Below the pieces are notes generated by a model that saw nothing but the letters and a program-made list of their open reading frames with translations, did no database searches and was not told the DNA's origin. Shown piece by piece: positions 12,125 to 24,881 of a stretch of DNA of 64,000 bases. This DNA comes from a bacterium. Its GTDB lineage: Bacteria > Actinomycetota > Acidimicrobiia > Acidimicrobiales > Bin134. The stretch's first letter is position 1; each line of letters opens with the position of its first letter. The translations under genes and the position numbers were made by a program. Location of the stretch: positions 1-64,000 of the forward strand of contig JAPOVT010000023.1 in NCBI GenBank assembly GCA_026708015.1. The letters are read 5' to 3'.

Positions 12125-12412
12125 ATGGCAGCGAAGCAGCGCACGATTGCAGCCGGAGAGTTCAAGAATCGGTGCCTGGCACTGATGGACGAGGTGAACG
12201 AGACCGGCGAGGAGCTCGTGATCACCAAGCACGGCAAGCCGGTGTCGCGACTGGTTCCGGCGGAAAACCCGAAACCGCAAATGTGGGGTCGGTACAAGGA
12301 TCAGATTCGCATTGTGGGGGACATCATGTCACCTGCCGTCCCTCTCGAAGACTGGGAGGTCATCAGCAATCCCGACCGGGTGCTAAACCCTGATCTTCCA
12401 CTTAAAGAGTGA
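12125..12412 (+). CDS. Phd/YefM-type antitoxin
   Basis: 95 residues. The N-terminal half has the Phd/YefM DNA-binding fold: AAGEFKNRCLALMDEVNETG followed by EELVITKHGKPVSRLVP, the typical 'itrhGkPvA.lvp' signature. The C-terminal tail would bind the toxin. A TTGGAGG ribosome site precedes ATG 12125. GTG of the PIN toxin overlaps its stop (GTGA), so the two are translationally coupled. Confidence 0.88.
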   Translation: MAAKQRTIAAGEFKNRCLALMDEVNETGEELVITKHGKPVSRLVPAENPKPQMWGRYKDQIRIVGDIMSPAVPLEDWEVISNPDRVLNPDLPLKE

Positions 12413-12825
12413 TTCTTCTCGATACCCACATCCTCCTGTGGCTTGTCACAGCGACGACCCGCCTTGGGACGGTGGCTCGGAATGAGATCCAGGGGGCCTG
12501 GGATCGGGGTGAGGCAGCGGTATCTTCGTTCACGTTTTGGGAACTTGCGCTGCACTACAGCAAAGGTCGCCTCGAATTGGACACTCCTCCCCGTATTCTC
12601 TATCGAAACTGGATAGCCGACGGGCTGAGGACCGTTCCCGTGGATGACGAAATTGCTATGCGGTCGGTGGAACTCGGCGCGGATGGATTCCATCCCGACC
12701 CCGCCGATCGCGTCATCACCGCCACCGCAATCCTGGGCGGTTACAGATTGGCCACCGCCGACCGCGCCATCACCGAATGGGCCGAGCGAACCAGGCTCGT
12801 CTCGATCCTCGAGCCCGAGACTTGA
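12409..12825 (+). CDS. PIN-domain toxin (VapC-like ribonuclease)
   Basis: 138 residues starting at GTG 12409. PIN acidic residues can be placed as LLDTHILLWL (first Asp), FTFWELAL (Glu) and HPDPADRVITATA (Asp pair), the arrangement of type II toxin RNases that need magnesium. The partner is the Phd-type antitoxin directly upstream. Predicted function is translation inhibition by RNA cleavage when the antitoxin is lost. Confidence 0.87.
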   Translation: MILLDTHILLWLVTATTRLGTVARNEIQGAWDRGEAAVSSFTFWELALHYSKGRLELDTPPRILYRNWIADGLRTVPVDDEIAMRSVELGADGFHPDPADRVITATAILGGYRLATADRAITEWAERTRLVSILEPET

Positions 12826-12907: not shown

Positions 12908-12983
12908 TGGTGGTCGGGACCGGCGTCGATCCGGTGACCTTCCGCTTTTCAGGCGGACGCTCTGCCAACTGAGCTACCCGACC
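12908..12983 (-). tRNA. tRNA-Phe (GAA)
   Basis: The acceptor stem GGTCGGG pairs with CCCGACC, the D-arm contains AGCTCAGTTGGCAGAGC, the anticodon stem-loop is TCCGC CTGAAAA GCGGA giving anticodon GAA, and the T-arm is CACCGGATCGACGCCGGT with a non-standard T-loop start (ATCGA). The 3' CCA is encoded (12908-12910). It is the last of three tandem minus-strand tRNAs. Confidence 0.93.
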
Positions 12984-12996
12984 ATGTTCTGTTGTG

Positions 12997-13071
12997 CGGT
13001 CCCGACGGGATTTGAACCCGCGACCTCCGGCTTGACAGGCCGGCGTGCACTCCAAACTGCACCACGGGACC
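12997..13071 (-). tRNA. tRNA-Asp (GTC)
   Basis: Acceptor GGTCCCG pairs with CGGGACC, discriminator G. The anticodon loop CTGTCAA gives GTC, and the T-loop is GGTTCAAATCC. The terminal CCA is not encoded, unlike the neighbouring tRNA-Phe, so CCA must be added after transcription. It lies 13 bases upstream of tRNA-Phe on the same strand. Confidence 0.93.
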
Positions 13072-13136
13072 CTGATGTCGCTGCCCCGGAGGGCAGTGTT
13101 GTCGCCGCCCGCTATAAAACGATGCGCCGAACCTTG

Positions 13137-13209
13137 CACCCCCAACGGGATTCGAACCCGTGTTACCGCCTTGAAAGGGCGGCGTCCTAGGCCGCTGGAC
13201 GATGGGGGC
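13137..13209 (-). tRNA. tRNA-Glu (TTC)
   Basis: Acceptor GCCCCCA pairs with TGGGGGT (one G-T pair), discriminator G. The anticodon loop CTTTCAA gives TTC and the T-loop is GGTTCGAATCC. CCA is not encoded. First gene of the Glu-Asp-Phe tRNA cluster; the charged tRNA is also the substrate of HemA encoded at 42011. Confidence 0.93.
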
Positions 13210-16479: not shown

Positions 16480-16611
16480 GCTCCGAATTGTACGGGTCGC
16501 CTGTGACAGTCGGTCATCCCAAGCTGGGGGTTTTCAGGTCGATTGTCGCGGGCAAAGGGCATCCCCGATACCTTGGCCTGCCCTGCGCCGAAACCGTACT
16601 CTTGGCTGGTC

Positions 16612-17580
16612 ATGGGTGTTGCCCGCTTGTCTCCCCGCAGCCGCACGCGCGTTGCCGAACCGAACACAAGCCCCGGTATCAGCCCTGCCCGCCCTTCCTC
16701 CCGCAATCCCCTGCGCTCGGTGCGGGCCTATGTATCACTCACCAAGCCCCGCATAATCGAGCTGCTGCTGGTCACCACGGTTCCCACCATGGTGGTAGCC
16801 GATCGGGGAATTCCTTCGGTGTGGCTGATGGTGGCCACCGTTGTCGGCGGGACACTAGCCGCCGGCGGGGCCAACGCCATCAACATGTACGCAGATCGCG
16901 ACATCGACCGCCTCATGGAGCGCACCAAGAACCGACCCCTGGTAACCGGCGAGATCGCCCCCGTTCGAGCACTGGTTTTCGCCATTGTGCTCGAAGCGCT
17001 GGCCTTCGCCTGGCTGTGGGGATTTGTGAACCTGCTCAGCGCGGTTCTGGCAGTGTCAGCCACCGCGTTCTATGTGTTCGTTTACACGCTGTGGCTGAAG
17101 CGCACCTCCTCTCGCAACATCATCATCGGCGGGGCCGCCGGGGCCGTGCCCGTGCTGGTGGGCTGGGCGGCGGTCACCAACAGCCTCGACTGGGCGCCGC
17201 TGGTGCTGTTCGGCGTCATCTTCTATTGGACTCCACCCCATTTCTGGGCCCTGGCTATCCGCTACCGAGACGACTACCGGGCGGCCAACGTTCCCATGCT
17301 GCCCGCCGTGGCCAGCACTCGCACCACCGCAGTGCGGATGATTGGCTACACCGTGGTTCTGTGGGGGCTGTCGGTGCTGTTCAGCACGGTGGGCAAGATG
17401 GGCCTGGTGTACTTGGTGAGCGCCGTGGTGCTGGGAGCCGTCTTTTTGTACTACGCCGTCCAAGTGCTGCGGACCCAGGAAACCGCGTCGGCGATGCGGT
17501 TGTTCTCCTACTCCATTACCTACATCACGCTGCTGTTCGCAGCGATGGTTGTCGACCAGGTGGTTCGCACCGGTGTTTAA
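16612..17580 (+). CDS. ctaB: Protoheme IX farnesyltransferase (heme O synthase)
   Basis: UbiA-family prenyltransferase of 322 residues from ATG 16612. Motifs are NAINMYADRDIDRLMERT (the N-x3-D-x3-D prenyl-diphosphate site), a second site at YRDDYRAANVPMLP, and repeated membrane helices. It makes heme O, the substrate of CtaA on the opposite strand. A longer reading from TTG 16543 is possible, but the residues between look non-conserved. Confidence 0.92.
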   Translation: MGVARLSPRSRTRVAEPNTSPGISPARPSSRNPLRSVRAYVSLTKPRIIELLLVTTVPTMVVADRGIPSVWLMVATVVGGTLAAGGANAINMYADRDIDRLMERTKNRPLVTGEIAPVRALVFAIVLEALAFAWLWGFVNLLSAVLAVSATAFYVFVYTLWLKRTSSRNIIIGGAAGAVPVLVGWAAVTNSLDWAPLVLFGVIFYWTPPHFWALAIRYRDDYRAANVPMLPAVASTRTTAVRMIGYTVVLWGLSVLFSTVGKMGLVYLVSAVVLGAVFLYYAVQVLRTQETASAMRLFSYSITYITLLFAAMVVDQVVRTGV

Positions 17581-17688: not shown

Positions 17689-19332
17689 ATGACCCTCACC
17701 GAGACTAGGCCAGAAGCAGAAGCGGTCGCGGCAGGCGACGACTCAAGGCCGGCGACCCAGTCGTCGGCCCCCCAGTGGACCCCTCCGACCGGCTTGGCTC
17801 GAATCCTGAGCACCGGCGACCACCTGACCATCGGCCAGATGTATGTGGTCTTCTCGCTGATCCTGTCGGGGCTGGCCCTCACCCTGGGCATGCTGATGGG
17901 CATCGAGCAGGCTGACATCGACGGTGGCTTCGGTGTTTTCAGCAACGCCAACGAGGTCTTCCAGGTATTCGGCCTCTACCGGACCACGCTGATTCTGTGC
18001 GGTCTGGTGCCGCTGTTCTTGGGCCTGGCCACCGCGATTGTGCCCCGCCAACTCGGCGCCTCTTCGGTGGCATTCCCCCGCGCCGCGGCGGCAGCGTTCT
18101 GGACCTGGCTGGTGGGCGCTGTTGCCCACATCGTGGCCACCTTCTCCTACGGCGGGTTGGGCTCGGTGCAAGCCGGTGCGGCCCGCGAGCAATCAGTGGA
18201 GCTCACCGTCCTCTCGCTGGGCTTGATCGGCGTAGGCCTTCTGGTGGGGTCAGGGGTGGTGTTCACCTCCCTGGTCACCCAGCGCCCGGCGGGGATGGAC
18301 CTGCTCCAGATGCCCGCTTTCTCGTGGTCGATGCTGGTGGCCACCGGGGTGTGGCTGTTCTCGCTGCCGGTTCTGTTGGCCAATTTGATGGTCTCATGGG
18401 TGGACATGCGAGGGGCCGACGCCCTGCCCTTCGGCGGGGGAGAAGCACCGTTCGATTTGGTGGCCTGGGCGTTTGACGCTCCCCAGATATTCGCCTGGAC
18501 GATCCCGCTGCTCGGCATCACCGCCGAGGTGTTCACCTCCGCCCACCGCAGCAGCCCCAAGATGTTCGAGCCCATGGCCTTCATCGTGGGGGCCTTCGGC
18601 TTCTTCTCATTCGGCGCCTGGGCCCAGAGCTTCTTCGACAGCTCCGACCCCACCGCCACCGATGCCCACGTCGTGACCAACGAGGTGCTGTTCACCGCGT
18701 TCGCCCTGGCTATCGCCCTGATGGTGGTGGCCTACGGCGGTTGGCTGGCGTTCAACGCCTATTCGGCCGGACAGCGCCCGCAGATCACTCCGCAGTTCGC
18801 CCTGGTCACCGTGTCCGGCGCACTGCTGACCGCCGCGGCTGTGACCGGTGTGCTGCGGGTGGCCGAACCCGCTCTGGGCGTGCTGCGAGAGGCCGACGGC
18901 GACATCTGGCGGGGTTTCTTCGACGCCATGGACGACCTCGAAACCTCCAGCCTGGTCAACGGGTTGATGAATTTCGCGGTTCTGGCCGGGCTGCTGGCCG
19001 CAGTGGCCGGGCTCTTCCACTGGGCCCCCAAGATGCTGGGCCGCTCTCTCAACGCACCACTGGGGTTCTTGGCCGTGCTGCCGCTGGCCGGGGGCGCGAT
19101 CCTCGTCGGGGCCACCGATGTGCTGAGCGGATTCTTCGACCAGCCAAACCGGCCCTTCGAAACCGGCAGCATTGGCGACATCGACGCGCTCGGCTTCGTG
19201 GAAGCCCTCAATGTGATCGGGTTGATCGGCTACATCGCCGTGCTGGGCGGTTTGGCGCTGGTGGCGCTGAACGTGGTCCGCAGCCTCGGCGCAGCCCCGA
19301 CGGCCGAGGTCGAAAGTGAGGGGGCGGCCTGA
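17689..19332 (+). CDS. Subunit I-like cytochrome oxidase paralogue lacking all heme and copper ligands
   Basis: 547 residues, 12 or so helices, aligned by eye with the true CtaD at 22175. Conserved landmarks line up: helix II LYRTTLILCGLVPLFLGLAT against the CtaD segment around H98, FDAPQIFAWTIPLLGITAEV against FGHPEVYILILPAFGIVSEI, and LFHWAPKMLGRSLN against FYYWWPKAFGYKLN. The six metal-binding histidines are all replaced: TMHGV becomes LILCG (101-105), GHPEVY becomes DAPQIF (263-268), HH becomes QS (313-314), HFH becomes LMN (426-428). It cannot bind heme a, heme a3 or CuB in the usual way. It overlaps the next gene by one base. A -10-like TATAAA stands at 17651 but no -35 is evident. Confidence 0.8.
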   Translation: MTLTETRPEAEAVAAGDDSRPATQSSAPQWTPPTGLARILSTGDHLTIGQMYVVFSLILSGLALTLGMLMGIEQADIDGGFGVFSNANEVFQVFGLYRTTLILCGLVPLFLGLATAIVPRQLGASSVAFPRAAAAAFWTWLVGAVAHIVATFSYGGLGSVQAGAAREQSVELTVLSLGLIGVGLLVGSGVVFTSLVTQRPAGMDLLQMPAFSWSMLVATGVWLFSLPVLLANLMVSWVDMRGADALPFGGGEAPFDLVAWAFDAPQIFAWTIPLLGITAEVFTSAHRSSPKMFEPMAFIVGAFGFFSFGAWAQSFFDSSDPTATDAHVVTNEVLFTAFALAIALMVVAYGGWLAFNAYSAGQRPQITPQFALVTVSGALLTAAAVTGVLRVAEPALGVLREADGDIWRGFFDAMDDLETSSLVNGLMNFAVLAGLLAAVAGLFHWAPKMLGRSLNAPLGFLAVLPLAGGAILVGATDVLSGFFDQPNRPFETGSIGDIDALGFVEALNVIGLIGYIAVLGGLALVALNVVRSLGAAPTAEVESEGAA

Positions 19333-19928
19333 TGGCTGACATCCCCGTTGGAACTCCCCTGGCCGCTCCGCTGCCCCGCCAGCGCACCCTGCTGGTGGGC
19401 ACCGTGTTCGGCACCGCCGCCACGCTCATGTACTTTGCCGGCCTGCTGGGTGTGTACTTGCGGAAGCGGTCCGATGTCCTCTCCGGGGGCGAGGAGTGGA
19501 TCCCCTCTGGCGCAAACATCCAGTTGGCCCCGCCCACCGTTGCGGCGTGGACCATGCTCATGTCGGTGGTCACCATGCAGTGGGCGGTGTATTCCATTGC
19601 CCGCGACGACCGCGCCCACGCCATCATGGCCACTGCGCTGACCACCCTGTTCGGCCTCTCCGTGGTGGTCACAACCTCGTTCCAGTACACCGAGATGGGC
19701 TTGGTGGCCGACGAGTCGATCGCGGCTGTATTGATCTACACCATTTCGGGGTCGCACCTGGCCATGATCGCTGTCGGCTTGGTGTTCCTGCTCCTGATGG
19801 CCTTTCGGGCCCTGGGCGGCCAATACAGCAGCCGCCAAACCGACGGCTTCGTGGCCGCGTCCATCTACTGGTACGCCGTCGTATTCGTCTATGTCGTCAT
19901 CTGGACGGCGATCTTCGTGCTGAAGTAG
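19332..19928 (+). CDS. Subunit III-like heme-copper oxidase protein
   Basis: 198 residues with five hydrophobic helices. It resembles CtaE (24264) in LAPPTVAAWTMLMSVVTMQW, SFQYTEMG (CtaE has GQVYEFTA) and the ending YWYAVVFVYVVIWTAIFVL against YWHFVDIVWIVIFTIVYLF. The conserved histidines of CtaE (GFHGAH and YWHFVD) are reduced to GSHLAM and YWYAVV. ATG overlaps the previous stop (TGATG). With the ligand-less subunit I it forms a second, divergent I/III pair ahead of the genuine oxidase genes. Confidence 0.75.
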   Translation: MADIPVGTPLAAPLPRQRTLLVGTVFGTAATLMYFAGLLGVYLRKRSDVLSGGEEWIPSGANIQLAPPTVAAWTMLMSVVTMQWAVYSIARDDRAHAIMATALTTLFGLSVVVTTSFQYTEMGLVADESIAAVLIYTISGSHLAMIAVGLVFLLLMAFRALGGQYSSRQTDGFVAASIYWYAVVFVYVVIWTAIFVLK

Positions 19929-19985: not shown

Positions 19986-20819
19986 GTGTTCACCCCCGGC
20001 TTCCGTCTGTTCTTCGGCTTCACCCTCGCCGCGGTGGCCGCCGCCGCCGTGTACGGCGTGGCCAGCGGCAGCGCGGGAGAAACCGAGTACTTCGCGGTGC
20101 TCAACGTGGAGACCTGGGTGGGCGTGCTCAGCCTGGGCTACAAGGGCGGCATCGGCGACCATGTGGGCTATGTGGTGCTGATGGGCTTCGCCGTGCTGTC
20201 GGCGCTGGTGGCCCTGTTCTTGGTGGCCTTCCGCGACGCCGACGCCGAGTCGGTGGGCGAGCTGATGGAAGACGGCCGGACCCCCGAGCCGCAAGTCGAT
20301 CTGGAGGCCAACTACTGGCCAGCCGTGGCCGCCTTCGGAGCGGGGGCGATGATCGTGGGGCTGGCCACCCACGCCACCATCTTCGTGATCGGACTGGTGA
20401 TCGTGGGAGCGGCCCTGTTCGAGTGGATGCTCACGGCGTGGGCCGACCGGGCCACCGCCGACCCCGAGGTCAACCGCAATCTCCGAAACCGCATCATGCG
20501 GCCGGTGGAGTACCCGGTCACCGCGGCGCTGGGCGTGGCGGTGCTGGTGCTGGCCCTGTCGCGGGTGTTCTTGACCGTGTCGCAGTTCAGCGCAGTAATT
20601 GTGGCCGGGGTCGTGGCCACCGTGATCTTCTTGATCGCGGTGGTGTTCGCGGTCGGCCCCAAGATCAGCCGGTCGGTGATCGCCGGCACGGTGGCACTGG
20701 TATGCGTCGGTGTTCTGATCGCCGGCGTGGTAACCGCGGCGATTGGCTCGCGCGACTTCCACCACAAGGTGCCGGCGGGCGAACACGGCGAACCCGCGGC
20801 CGAAAACGGAGGCCACTAG
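19986..20819 (+). CDS. Integral membrane protein of the oxidase locus, family unknown
   Basis: 277 residues from GTG 19986. About seven hydrophobic segments are visible: an N-terminal one, GYVVLMGFAVLSALVALFLV, pairs around residues 105-145, then several in the C-terminal third. The end is polar and His/Glu-rich. Its place between two oxidase gene sets, on the same strand with a 34-base gap to ctaC, suggests a subunit or assembly factor. I do not recognise the family; it is longer than the actinobacterial subunit IV (CtaF). Confidence 0.65.
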   Translation: MFTPGFRLFFGFTLAAVAAAAVYGVASGSAGETEYFAVLNVETWVGVLSLGYKGGIGDHVGYVVLMGFAVLSALVALFLVAFRDADAESVGELMEDGRTPEPQVDLEANYWPAVAAFGAGAMIVGLATHATIFVIGLVIVGAALFEWMLTAWADRATADPEVNRNLRNRIMRPVEYPVTAALGVAVLVLALSRVFLTVSQFSAVIVAGVVATVIFLIAVVFAVGPKISRSVIAGTVALVCVGVLIAGVVTAAIGSRDFHHKVPAGEHGEPAAENGGH

Positions 20820-20853: not shown

Positions 20854-22116
20854 ATGAGCAAGCGAGCCAGGGGCCTGGTCTGGCTGTCGAGCCTGTTGGT
20901 GATCTTCGGCGCCATTGCCTTGATCGTGGTCGCCATCGTGGTCGACAAAGACCATCCGCTGTCCACGCTGTCGCCCGTGGGCCGCCAAGGCCGCGACATC
21001 GCCGAGCTCATCAACCCCATCTTCATCGTGGCCGGGGTGGTGTTCTTCTTGGTCCAAGGGGCGGTGCTGGCCCTGTGGTGGCGCTATCGGGTATCGGGCT
21101 CTGAAACCGGCGACGGCGAGTACGGCTACTACGAAGACGAGGAGTTCCCCGAGCAGGTCCACGGCAACAACCGCCTCGAAATCGCCTGGACCATCGTGCC
21201 GACGGTGCTGTTGGCTGTTATATCGGTGTTCACCCTGGTGGCGCTGTTCGCCCTCGACGACGTGAAGGCCTCCGACGACGACCTGGTTGTCACCGTGATC
21301 GGCCAGCAGTGGTGGTGGGAGTACCAGTACCACCTCGATGGCGACACCGACTCGGCGCCTGATTTCGTGACCGCCAACGAACTGGTGATCCCCGTCGGGC
21401 AGGACGTGGCCCTCGACATCAAGTCGCGTGACGTGATCCACTCCTTCTGGATTCCCAAGCTGAACGGCAAGCGCGACGCCGTGCCCGGCCGCTCCCACGA
21501 TTGGGTGATCCAAGCCGACGAGCCCGGCCGCTTCCGGGGCCAATGCACCGAGTTCTGCGGCCTGTCCCACGGCTACATGAAGATGGTTGCCGTGGCCCTC
21601 CCCACCGCAGAATTCGCCCAATGGAGAGACAATCAGATCACCCCGGCCGAAATGCCCGAGGAAGGCACCCCGGCGGGAGAGGGTTGGGACACCTTCAGAC
21701 AACAGTGCGCCAATTGCCACGTGATCAACGGGGTCACCGAAGCAGCCAACCGCGGCGGCGACCCTGAATCGGCCCCCGACAGCTGGGACATCTACGGCGA
21801 ATTCAATGGCCCCCACGCTGGCACTTACACCGACGAATTGGTGGCCGGCGCGGCCCCCAACCTCACCCACCTGATGACCCGGGGCACATTTGCCGGGTCG
21901 GCGTTCGATCTCTATCTGAACGCCGGAGACCACATTCCCTATTTGGAGTTGGCCAACAATGGGACGCTCAACCGGGGTGAACTTGAGGCCTGGATCTACA
22001 ACGCTCCCGAGCGCAAGCCGGCCGACGCCGAAGATCTCCGGGGCATGCCGGCCCGCACCGGATTGAGCCCTGCCGACATCGACAATGTCGTTGCCTTCCT
22101 GGAAACTCTCGACTGA
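20854..22116 (+). CDS. ctaC: Cytochrome c oxidase subunit II with fused cytochrome c domain (caa3 type)
   Basis: 420 residues. Two N-terminal helices are followed by the cupredoxin domain: QQWWWEYQY, the CuA histidine in DVIHSFW and the ligand cluster CTEFCGLSHGYMKM. A C-terminal cytochrome c domain carries CANCH (heme c) with a plausible methionine ligand in RGMPART. It takes electrons from cytochrome c and passes them to CtaD. ATG 20854 is chosen because the open frame upstream is non-conserved; a short ORF (20822-20857) ends on this ATG. Confidence 0.93.
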   Translation: MSKRARGLVWLSSLLVIFGAIALIVVAIVVDKDHPLSTLSPVGRQGRDIAELINPIFIVAGVVFFLVQGAVLALWWRYRVSGSETGDGEYGYYEDEEFPEQVHGNNRLEIAWTIVPTVLLAVISVFTLVALFALDDVKASDDDLVVTVIGQQWWWEYQYHLDGDTDSAPDFVTANELVIPVGQDVALDIKSRDVIHSFWIPKLNGKRDAVPGRSHDWVIQADEPGRFRGQCTEFCGLSHGYMKMVAVALPTAEFAQWRDNQITPAEMPEEGTPAGEGWDTFRQQCANCHVINGVTEAANRGGDPESAPDSWDIYGEFNGPHAGTYTDELVAGAAPNLTHLMTRGTFAGSAFDLYLNAGDHIPYLELANNGTLNRGELEAWIYNAPERKPADAEDLRGMPARTGLSPADIDNVVAFLETLD

Positions 22117-22174: not shown

Positions 22175-24259
22175 ATGACCGTCACCGAACGCACGATCAC
22201 CGCCCCCGAGGAGACTCTGGCGCTACCGGCGGGCCCGGCCATCGCCCATCGCCCCCTGGGTGTCTTCACCCGACCCCAAGGCAGCGAGGGCTGGAAGAGC
22301 TGGCTGTTCACCGTCGACCACAAGCGCATCGGCATCATGTACGGTGCCGCTGCCCTGTTCTTCTTCCTAGTGGGTGGGGCCGAGGCCCTGTTCATCCGCC
22401 TCCAGTTGGCCACCCCCAACGGCTCGGTGATCGGGGCTGGCACTTACAACGGCGTGTTCACCATGCACGGCGTGACCATGGTGTTCCTGGTGATCATGCC
22501 CATGGCCGCCGCCTTCGCCAACTACCTATTGCCCTTGCAAGTGGGCGCCCGAGACGTGGCCTTTCCGCGCCTCAACGCCTTCAGCTTCTGGTGCTTCCTA
22601 GCCGGCGGCATGCTGCTCACCTCCTCGATCCTCGTCGGCGGCTGGTTCCAAAACGCCCCCGACGGCGGCTGGTTCGCCTACGCCCCCAACACCGGTCTGC
22701 TGTTCTCACCGTCCAAGGGCATCGACTTCTACGCCGTCGGCTTGCAGATACTCGGCATCGCGTCGCTGGTCAGCGCCATAAATCTGATCGTGACCGTGTT
22801 GAACATGCGAACGCCGGGTATGAGCTTCTTCCGAATGCCGGTGCTCACCTGGATGCTGCTCATCACCCAGTTCCTGTTGCTGTTCGCCCTGCCGGTGATC
22901 ACCGTGGCGCTGTTCCTGTTGATGTTCGACCGGCTGTGGGACGCCAACTTCTTCAACGTGGAGGCCGGGGCCGATCCGCTGCTGTGGCAGCACCTGTTCT
23001 GGATATTCGGCCATCCCGAGGTGTACATCCTGATATTGCCCGCCTTCGGGATCGTGTCGGAGATCATCCCCACGTTCTCCCGCAAGCCCCTGTTCGGCTA
23101 CCACTTCATGGTCGCCTCCGGCATCGCCATCGGCTTCATGGGCTGGGGGGTGTGGGCCCACCACATGTTCACCTCCGGCGTGGGGCCGCTGTCGGTGGCG
23201 GCGTTCTCGGTGTCCACCATGTTCATCGCCGTGCCCACCGGGGTGAAGATCCTCAACTGGCTGGCCACCATGTACCGGGGTCGATTGCGATTTACCACCC
23301 CCATGCTCTACGCCGTGGGCGTGGTGTCGATGTTCACCATCGGCGGCCTGTCCGGGGTGACCCACTCCATCGCGCCCTCTGACACCCAGCAAACCGACAC
23401 CTATTACATCGTGGCCCACTTCCACTATGTGATCTTCGGCGGGGCGCTGCTGGGGCTGTTCGGCGGCTTCTACTACTGGTGGCCCAAGGCGTTCGGCTAC
23501 AAGCTGAACGAGGCGTGGGGCAAGGCCAGCTTCTGGGTGATGCTCATCGGGTTCAACTTCACGTTCGGCCCCATGCACATCCTCGGCTTGCAGGGCATGT
23601 CCCGGCGCATCGCCACCTATCGGGCCGACGAGGGCTTTGCCTTCTGGAACATGGTGGCCACGATCGGGGCGTTCGTCATTGCCATCGGGGTGGCCATGTT
23701 CTTCTGGAACGTGTACGTGAGCACCCGGAACTGGCGGCGGGCCGGTCGGCCCGATGTGGGCCCCGACCCCTGGGACGCCCGAGGGCTGGAGTGGATGACC
23801 GCCTCCCCGGTGCCCGAGCACAATTTTGACGAAGACATCCAGGTGGACCGCCTCGATCATTTCTGGCACCGCAAGTACGGCGTCGACGAGAACCACCGGG
23901 TGGTCAGGGCCGCCCCCACCTCGGAGATCGCCCACGACGGCAGCAACACCAACGTGCATTTGCCGTCGCCGTCGTACTGGCCCATTGTGCTCGGCGGCGG
24001 CATCCTGCTGGTGGGCTACGGCCTCATCTACAACTTGTGGCTGGCCGCTGCCGGGCTGGTGTTCTTGGTGGCCTCCATCTACGGCTGGATTCTGGAGCCG
24101 GCCGACGACCCCGACGCTGCCGGCCACCACGACGACGGCCACGATCACGGCGACCCCGACAGCAACGGCGGGCCCAGCGGCAATGGCGATTCCGCCTCGG
24201 CGGAGGCGCCCGCCGGCGATTCGGCAGAAGCCGAGGAGGAGGCAGCGACCGTTGGCTGA
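22175..24259 (+). CDS. ctaD: Cytochrome c oxidase subunit I
   Basis: 694 residues. All metal ligands are present: H98 in TMHGVTM (heme a), GHPEVYI with H280 cross-linked to Y284 (CuB), HH at 329-330 (CuB), and HFHYV with H415 (heme a3) and H417 (heme a). Past the 12-helix core there is an extra C-terminal module with two hydrophobic stretches (WPIVLGGGILLVGYGLIYNL and AAAGLVFLVASIYGWIL), like an actinobacterial subunit IV fused on. A His/Asp/Gly-rich acidic tail of about 50 residues follows. It is the catalytic proton-pumping subunit. Confidence 0.95.
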   Translation: MTVTERTITAPEETLALPAGPAIAHRPLGVFTRPQGSEGWKSWLFTVDHKRIGIMYGAAALFFFLVGGAEALFIRLQLATPNGSVIGAGTYNGVFTMHGVTMVFLVIMPMAAAFANYLLPLQVGARDVAFPRLNAFSFWCFLAGGMLLTSSILVGGWFQNAPDGGWFAYAPNTGLLFSPSKGIDFYAVGLQILGIASLVSAINLIVTVLNMRTPGMSFFRMPVLTWMLLITQFLLLFALPVITVALFLLMFDRLWDANFFNVEAGADPLLWQHLFWIFGHPEVYILILPAFGIVSEIIPTFSRKPLFGYHFMVASGIAIGFMGWGVWAHHMFTSGVGPLSVAAFSVSTMFIAVPTGVKILNWLATMYRGRLRFTTPMLYAVGVVSMFTIGGLSGVTHSIAPSDTQQTDTYYIVAHFHYVIFGGALLGLFGGFYYWWPKAFGYKLNEAWGKASFWVMLIGFNFTFGPMHILGLQGMSRRIATYRADEGFAFWNMVATIGAFVIAIGVAMFFWNVYVSTRNWRRAGRPDVGPDPWDARGLEWMTASPVPEHNFDEDIQVDRLDHFWHRKYGVDENHRVVRAAPTSEIAHDGSNTNVHLPSPSYWPIVLGGGILLVGYGLIYNLWLAAAGLVFLVASIYGWILEPADDPDAAGHHDDGHDHGDPDSNGGPSGNGDSASAEAPAGDSAEAEEEAATVG

Positions 24260-24263
24260 CACC

Positions 24264-24881
24264 ATGACTGCCGAAACCACGGCCAGCGAGGCCGCCGCCC
24301 ACGCCGAGGGCCACCACACCAGCACCGGCATCTCCAACGAGAAGCTGGCCATGTGGGTGTTCCTGGGCTCGGAGTGCCTGCTGTTCGGCGGGCTCATCTC
24401 CGTATACATGTTCAACAAGGGTCGCATCGGTCCCAACGATGTCGGACCCGAAGACGTGTTCGACATCCCCTTCACGTCGGTCAGCTCGTTCGTGTTGCTG
24501 ATGAGTTCGCTCACCATGGTGTTCGCGGTGTCGGCCATCGCCCGGGGCGATCTGCGGGGCAACCGCATCTGGTTGGCCGCCACTGCCGCCCTGGGGGCCA
24601 CATTCGTGGCTGGACAGGTGTACGAGTTCACCGCCTTCTACAGCGAGGGCCTCGGGTTCACCACCAACCTGTTCGGCTCCGCCTTCTACGCCCTCACCGG
24701 ATTCCACGGTGCTCACGTCACCTTAGGCATCATCATGCTCATGTCGCTGCTGGTGATGTCGCTGCGGGGCAACCTCACCCAAGAGCGGGCCGAGACCGTG
24801 GAGATCATCGGCCTGTACTGGCACTTCGTCGACATCGTCTGGATCGTGATCTTCACGATCGTGTACCTCTTCCCACAGTAG
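24264..24881 (+). CDS. ctaE: Cytochrome c oxidase subunit III
   Basis: 205 residues, five helices, short form without the first two mitochondrial helices. Markers: FLGSECLLFGGLI, AGQVYEFTAF with the conserved glutamate, LTGFHGAHVTLGI and the terminal YWHFVDIVWIVIF. ATG 24264 lies four bases after the ctaD stop; a TTG at 24252 is an alternative. Stabilises the proton-uptake side of CtaD. Confidence 0.93.
   Translation: MTAETTASEAAAHAEGHHTSTGISNEKLAMWVFLGSECLLFGGLISVYMFNKGRIGPNDVGPEDVFDIPFTSVSSFVLLMSSLTMVFAVSAIARGDLRGNRIWLAATAALGATFVAGQVYEFTAFYSEGLGFTTNLFGSAFYALTGFHGAHVTLGIIMLMSLLVMSLRGNLTQERAETVEIIGLYWHFVDIVWIVIFTIVYLFPQ

Follow-up and report, generated by a model that had tools for sequence, protein, structure and literature searches.

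Six histidines normally identify subunit I of the haem-copper oxidases, and the question raised by the stretch of DNA analysed here (the window, 64,000 nt of contig 23 of a 3.5 Mb genome) is what a subunit I paralogue that has none of them is doing directly upstream of an intact caa3 oxidase. The nearest named relatives of this genome are Acidimicrobiia, including Candidatus Poriferisocius, relatives which we take, partly from the name, to be sponge symbionts. The paralogue (pI), a subunit III-like gene (pIII) and a gene for a conserved membrane protein (X) are followed by ctaC, ctaD and ctaE, all six being consecutive and co-directional (Table 1). The single-base junction between pI and pIII recorded in a preliminary description of the locus is indeed present (TGATG, 19330-19334). 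The translation of ctaC retains both the CuA motif, CTEFCGLSHGYM, and CANCH; it is the only ctaC in the locus, the pI-pIII-X module having no second subunit II gene. A PF00115 scan of the genome found no other haem-copper oxidase, and there was no match to cytochrome bd. Near its C terminus (residues 583-641), the CtaD encoded at 22175-24259 matches PF12270, the subunit IV or CtaF family (E 4.8e-7), and a CtaF portion seems to be fused to this canonical subunit. Elsewhere in the window lie two adjacent small genes whose translations resemble a Phd-type antitoxin and a PIN-domain toxin (12125-12825), and a cluster of tRNA-Phe, tRNA-Asp and tRNA-Glu on the reverse strand (12908-13209).

Table 1. 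Genes and gene parts of the oxidase locus, in window coordinates
Feature	Position	Strand	Basis or remark
ctaB-like haem O synthase gene	16543..17580	+	upstream of pI; read from the translation alone
pI, CtaD/COX1 paralogue without metal ligands, 547 aa	17689..19332	+	PF00115, ligand census, AlphaFold
pIII, CtaE/COX3-like, 198 aa	19332..19928	+	PF00510 E 2.2e-12; CtaE profile match
X, conserved membrane protein, GTG start	19986..20819	+	co-conserved with pI and pIII
X residues 3-150, part aligned to CtaF (subunit IV)	19992..20435	+	hhalign, PF12270 in relatives, weak Foldseek
X residues 150-267, homologue of cupredoxin-protein membrane anchor	20433..20786	+	profile matches, loci, Pfam
ctaC, normal subunit II with fused cytochrome c	20854..22116	+	PF00116, PF02790, PF00034
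ctaD, canonical subunit I, all ligands	22175..24259	+	PF00115 E 1.2e-154; ligands HHYHHHH
ctaE, canonical subunit III	24264..24881	+	PF00510 E 1.9e-21
small gene resembling caa3 subunit IV	ends 25240	+	after ctaE

That pI has the fold of an oxidase subunit I is supported by several lines of evidence. It matches PF00115 (COX1) with an E value of 3.7e-31 and 108.9 bits, over a cut-off of 34.8 (99.5 bits in the genome scan), whilst its score against the NCBIfam model CtaD_CoxA, 127.8 bits, falls far under the equivalog cut-off of 670.75. A profile built from 64 relatives retrieved only oxidase subunits I from the PDB, the best being Mycobacterium smegmatis CtaD (E 3e-97). The helix layout had been described as retained, and this was borne out: 12 transmembrane helices are predicted, and the AlphaFold model (pLDDT 84.2, pTM 0.87) finds its best match in M. 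smegmatis CtaD (6adq_F; Z 37.0, 3.2 A over 469 residues).

The loss of all six ligand histidines, the central claim of the preliminary description, was upheld by alignment of pI with the CtaD of the same window, in which the three CuB histidines, the low-spin haem pair and the haem a3 histidine are all substituted; the same six are replaced in its congeners. Of the replacement motifs proposed earlier, one was misplaced, as the segment aligning with the helix II site is FGLYRTTL, and LILCG lies a few residues further on. Retention of ligands at shifted positions was considered and rejected: only one of the five histidines in pI, H45, is conserved in the family, and it belongs to an N-terminal DHK motif and is not a ligand. 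E286 and the residues of the D and K channels are also lost from the window protein, and across the family the D-channel Asp and Asn and the K-channel Lys are found in 0 of 105 pI sequences, as against 75-76 of 76 canonical CtaD sequences. The active-site tyrosine had likewise been listed as lost, and it is Phe in the window pI; however, Tyr remains in 14 of 20 sequences from the genus and in 63 of the 105 family members, so the substitution does not characterise the family. At one former CuB-histidine position Gln is present in 96 of the 105 pI sequences, next to an invariant Pro, and hence the old cavity appears still to be partly constrained. Thus pI has the COX1 fold and matches its profile but does not have the ligands of a catalytic A-family haem-copper oxidase; judged from its sequence it cannot be catalytic, and the window protein would be expected to bind no haem.

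The gene is nevertheless under purifying selection. An open pI frame was found in 20 of the 22 genomes of the genus, the remaining two being 68% complete, and median dN/dS within the genus is about 0.20 (range 0.08-0.27; Nei-Gojobori, 154 pairs), the neighbouring ctaD having a median of about 0.12 (28 pairs, same method). Together with the order-wide conservation of the locus described below, this bears out the earlier judgement that the gene is not decaying. The least variable region of pI is the cytoplasmic loop between helices II and III (1.04 bits), followed by loop III-IV and helix V, whilst helices VI, VII, VIII and X, which form the active site, are no less variable than the remainder of pI (2.0-2.3 bits), though nearly invariant in CtaD (0.46-0.69 bits). 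Most invariant positions are Gly, Pro or Trp, or lie in the cytoplasmic loops, and no new conserved polar set was seen inside the membrane part. Such a pattern of constraint would fit selection for contacts, not for catalysis. One relative (L170, G296:C55:20016-21596), a basal member that keeps haem ligands, has one in-frame TAG in pI, possibly through decay or a sequencing error.

The second gene of the module, pIII, exceeds the threshold of the COX3 family (PF00510, 47.8 bits, cut-off 23.8), and its profile matches actinobacterial CtaE with an E value of 9e-29. It had been called shortened, which is not the case, as its 198 residues compare with 205 in the canonical CtaE next door; the two are 22% identical. 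Two residues of the canonical protein are substituted in pIII, namely Glu in SE.LLFGGL of helix I and His in YWHFVD close to the C terminus.

The third gene, X, had been left as a membrane protein of unknown family; a partial assignment is possible. A profile alignment pairs residues 3-150 with the full length of CtaF from other Actinomycetota (hhalign probability 96.8, pairwise E 2.1e-10), the two sharing a W-P motif and a hairpin. The window protein matched nothing in Pfam above cut-off, PF12270 included; 6 of 53 relatives match PF12270 (E up to 1, best 1.3e-4), and a Foldseek search with the model of X (pTM 0.54) placed Corynebacterium glutamicum CtaF at rank 1 with a non-significant E value of 1.4. 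The assignment hence rests mainly on the profile-profile comparison, from which the first half of X is probably CtaF-like, that is, subunit IV-like. Residues from about 150 to 267 match the N-terminal membrane part of cupredoxin proteins (profile matches down to E 2.7e-23), an anchor that adds about three helices to the CtaF-like half. In other Actinomycetota, a gene for a membrane-anchored cupredoxin follows ctaC-ctaD-ctaE (L249-L255; for example L249:5066-5713 and L252:4344-4964); the cupredoxin domain of these proteins is identified by Pfam, and their anchor is homologous to the C-terminal half of X. Overall, X resembles a fusion of CtaF with the membrane anchor that oxidase-linked cupredoxins carry. 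The window protein ends in a short His-containing tail and the cupredoxin is absent; in most basal members X carries a complete, copper-type cupredoxin (PF13473, E 4e-11 to 3e-8) whose pattern is H..C..H..M. What had been presented as a subunit I and III pair thus stands as far as it went, but is really a triplet, in which subunits I, III and probably IV are duplicated and subunit II is not.

Initially pI could be thought of as a gene unique to one genome, a possibility rejected by the finding of relatives across the genus and the order. X is the cleanest marker of the module, and was detected in 170 of 248 sampled Acidimicrobiales genomes, leaving about a third of those sampled from the order without it. 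Several genomes, among them G204, G322, G333, G336 and G360, appeared to have X without pI; this was rejected on re-reading the loci, as pI was present at every X locus read except where the contig ended first. The apparent absences were hence an effect of scoring, low-scoring pI sequences being recovered on re-reading. Amongst Acidimicrobiales loci with enough sequence to show all six genes, the order pI-pIII-X-ctaC-ctaD-ctaE was found in 62 of 63 from the named collection and 44 of 46 further loci, which answers in the affirmative whether relatives keep the pair. The exceptions are one genome sampled twice (L099 and L198), with a stop in X and ctaCDE out of reach, and L173, where the module is separated by several kilobases from the closest fragment of ctaC. 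Beyond the order, matches to the X profile were limited to the C-terminal part of X or to short stretches resembling CtaF, and the full module therefore appears, within our sampling, to be confined to the Acidimicrobiales.

Ligand loss was then counted in the 165 pI sequences in which all columns were readable, these being loci, with some genomes counted twice. None of the six histidines remains in 112; no CuB histidine remains in 154, and the other 11 have one, never more. The low-spin haem pair is kept by 24, of which 12 also keep the a3 histidine. Relatives with intact ligands, which would have undermined the original description, were not found: none of the 165 has more than one CuB histidine, and the basal ones have at most three haem ligands. 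In the IQ-TREE phylogeny pI forms one clade (100/100), with the members that keep haem ligands as a basal grade, and the FastTree phylogeny agrees; the haem-ligand trait requires at least four changes on the IQ-TREE tree. Taken together, the census and the tree indicate that the loss of CuB preceded the radiation of the sampled family and that the haem sites disappeared later, more than once. The metals are hence judged, from alignment and phylogeny, to have been lost stepwise, CuB first. As pI is not nested within the sampled Acidimicrobiales ctaD sequences, its origin may lie in another A-type oxidase, rather than in a duplication in place.

Haem pair and cupredoxin largely coincide: 15 loci have both, 131 neither, nine the haem pair only and one the cupredoxin only, with X cut off by the end of the locus in two of the nine (L024 and L025). 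A linked loss of the two was not upheld, as the tree provides no more than about one independent pair of changes, and shared ancestry therefore explains the coincidence equally well. Running against the trend, L246 (G188) has a pI without the haem pair (NQLGNQT) and an X still carrying the cupredoxin.

What, then, might this module do? The reading we prefer, to which we would give about an even chance, is that pI-pIII-X forms a non-catalytic module of subunits I, III and IV, which binds the caa3 oxidase and serves it structurally or in docking. It would be a copy of the membrane core of the oxidase, comprising subunits I, III and a CtaF or subunit IV-like protein, without subunit II. It would be co-produced with CtaCDE, presumably from a single operon, and would lie beside them in the membrane, in protein contact. 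This pseudo-protomer may dock or space the oxidase in a III-IV supercomplex, or stabilise the oxidase. In M. smegmatis, CtaE and CtaF mediate the contacts between complexes III and IV, and one loop of subunit III is located on the II-III side, at the entry to the D pathway (PMC8361435); since the module duplicates CtaE and probably CtaF, a docking or stabilising partner is favoured. In the genome studied here, complex III genes adjoin nuo-like genes on contig 24 (L256, 15000-25000) and, read from their translations, encode a split cytochrome b, a Rieske protein and a cytochrome c with two CxxCH motifs; the mycobacterial interface is hence not directly transferable. Nor can the module be a general requirement of the caa3 oxidase, given the third of genomes without X. 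Historically, an ancestral pair of CtaD-like and CtaE-like proteins would first have lost CuB, one or two haems and the cupredoxin on X would have been kept for a time, as they still are in basal lineages, and all cofactors would then have been lost with the scaffold retained.

Of the roles suggested in the preliminary description, that of a partner to the caa3 oxidase, in its structure or its assembly, agrees best with the data, whilst an ion channel is less likely, as neither proton path retains its signature and invariance is largely limited to Gly, Pro, Trp and residues of the cytoplasmic loops. The main rival is an assembly factor, for which the conserved neighbourhood alone speaks just as strongly, the module being encoded co-directionally with ctaB on one side and ctaC on the other. 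It would then act as an inactive template or a chaperone during haem A insertion, copper loading or the joining of CtaD and CtaE, and be absent from the finished enzyme. The haem-ligand positions and cupredoxin of basal members could hold and hand over haem or copper. However, derived members, the window included, have neither ligand nor cupredoxin and could not carry cofactors, and a copy of I, III and IV with full-length helices would exceed the apparent need of a chaperone; overall we regard this role as rather unlikely. Those same basal features, a low-spin haem pair and a cupredoxin bearing H, C, H and M, could instead mark a respiratory or redox complex that formerly moved electrons from cupredoxin to haem and is still separate from CtaCDE, as the position of the L173 module might suggest. 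Such independence is very unlikely when the window and most members have no cofactor ligands and the module sits directly upstream of ctaC at almost every locus.

A function away from the oxidase, with the haem cavity now a gas, quinone or lipid sensor site or a transporter path and the operon reflecting co-regulation only, would accommodate the Gln at the former CuB position with its invariant Pro, and the loss of the D and K paths. Yet conservation in pI does not centre on helices VI, VII, VIII and X, no new conserved polar set was seen in the membrane, and pI is always accompanied by its oxidase-like partners pIII and X, making this distinctly unlikely. That the module is the functionless, decaying leftover of a duplicated oxidase is scarcely credible: although every catalytic residue is gone, the dN/dS values, the open frames and the block kept across the order contradict it, and the pseudogene reading was rejected on these grounds. 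The preferred reading of a bound, non-catalytic module can be extended, tentatively and with some doubt, to a live caa3 core permanently paired with a dead I/III/IV core, which would once have been a CuB-less haem protein with the cupredoxin of X replacing CuA; as part of this same doubtful extension, the basal lineages may represent a redox branch of the haem-copper superfamily that has no oxygen-reducing site.

Comparison with known systems underlines the mixture of likeness and difference. With actinobacterial CtaD (6adq_F), pI shares the 12-helix fold, the loop motifs DHK, PLQ.GA...AFPR, R.PGM and W.PK..GR and, in most relatives, the C-terminal TLEW..SPPP.NF tail, but pI of the window genus lacks the ligands of CuB, haem a and haem a3, and the D and K channels. 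The likeness of pIII to CtaE/COX3 extends to a score over the family cut-off and a length like that of its neighbour, though not to close sequence identity, and the window X differs from CtaF in falling under the PF12270 cut-off and in its extra helices. A duplicate beside an active copy is also found in the CydAA' cytochrome bd of some archaea, in which a second CydA-like subunit takes part, although this belongs to a different oxidase superfamily. The orphan CcoN subunits of Pseudomonas cbb3 oxidases are similarly extra copies of subunit I beyond a full operon; they are reported to support biofilm respiration, and so are not ligand-less, unlike pI (PMC5697931). Neither a ligand-less COX1 paralogue nor a pI-pIII-X module was described in the literature searched, most subscription journals lying outside the search.

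Much of a bacterial order keeps a histidine-less subunit I beside the live enzyme, along with copies of two more subunits, and annotation by PF00115 alone would miscount pI as a second terminal oxidase. This suggests that a dead copy of an oxidase is now a lasting, non-catalytic partner of the live one. The family also provides a graded natural series, in which CuB was lost first and haem a3, haem a and the cupredoxin have been lost in some lineages and kept in others. Such a series allows one to ask which parts of an oxidase scaffold are selected for non-catalytic reasons, and bears on whether respiratory supercomplexes recruit dead enzymes as structural parts.
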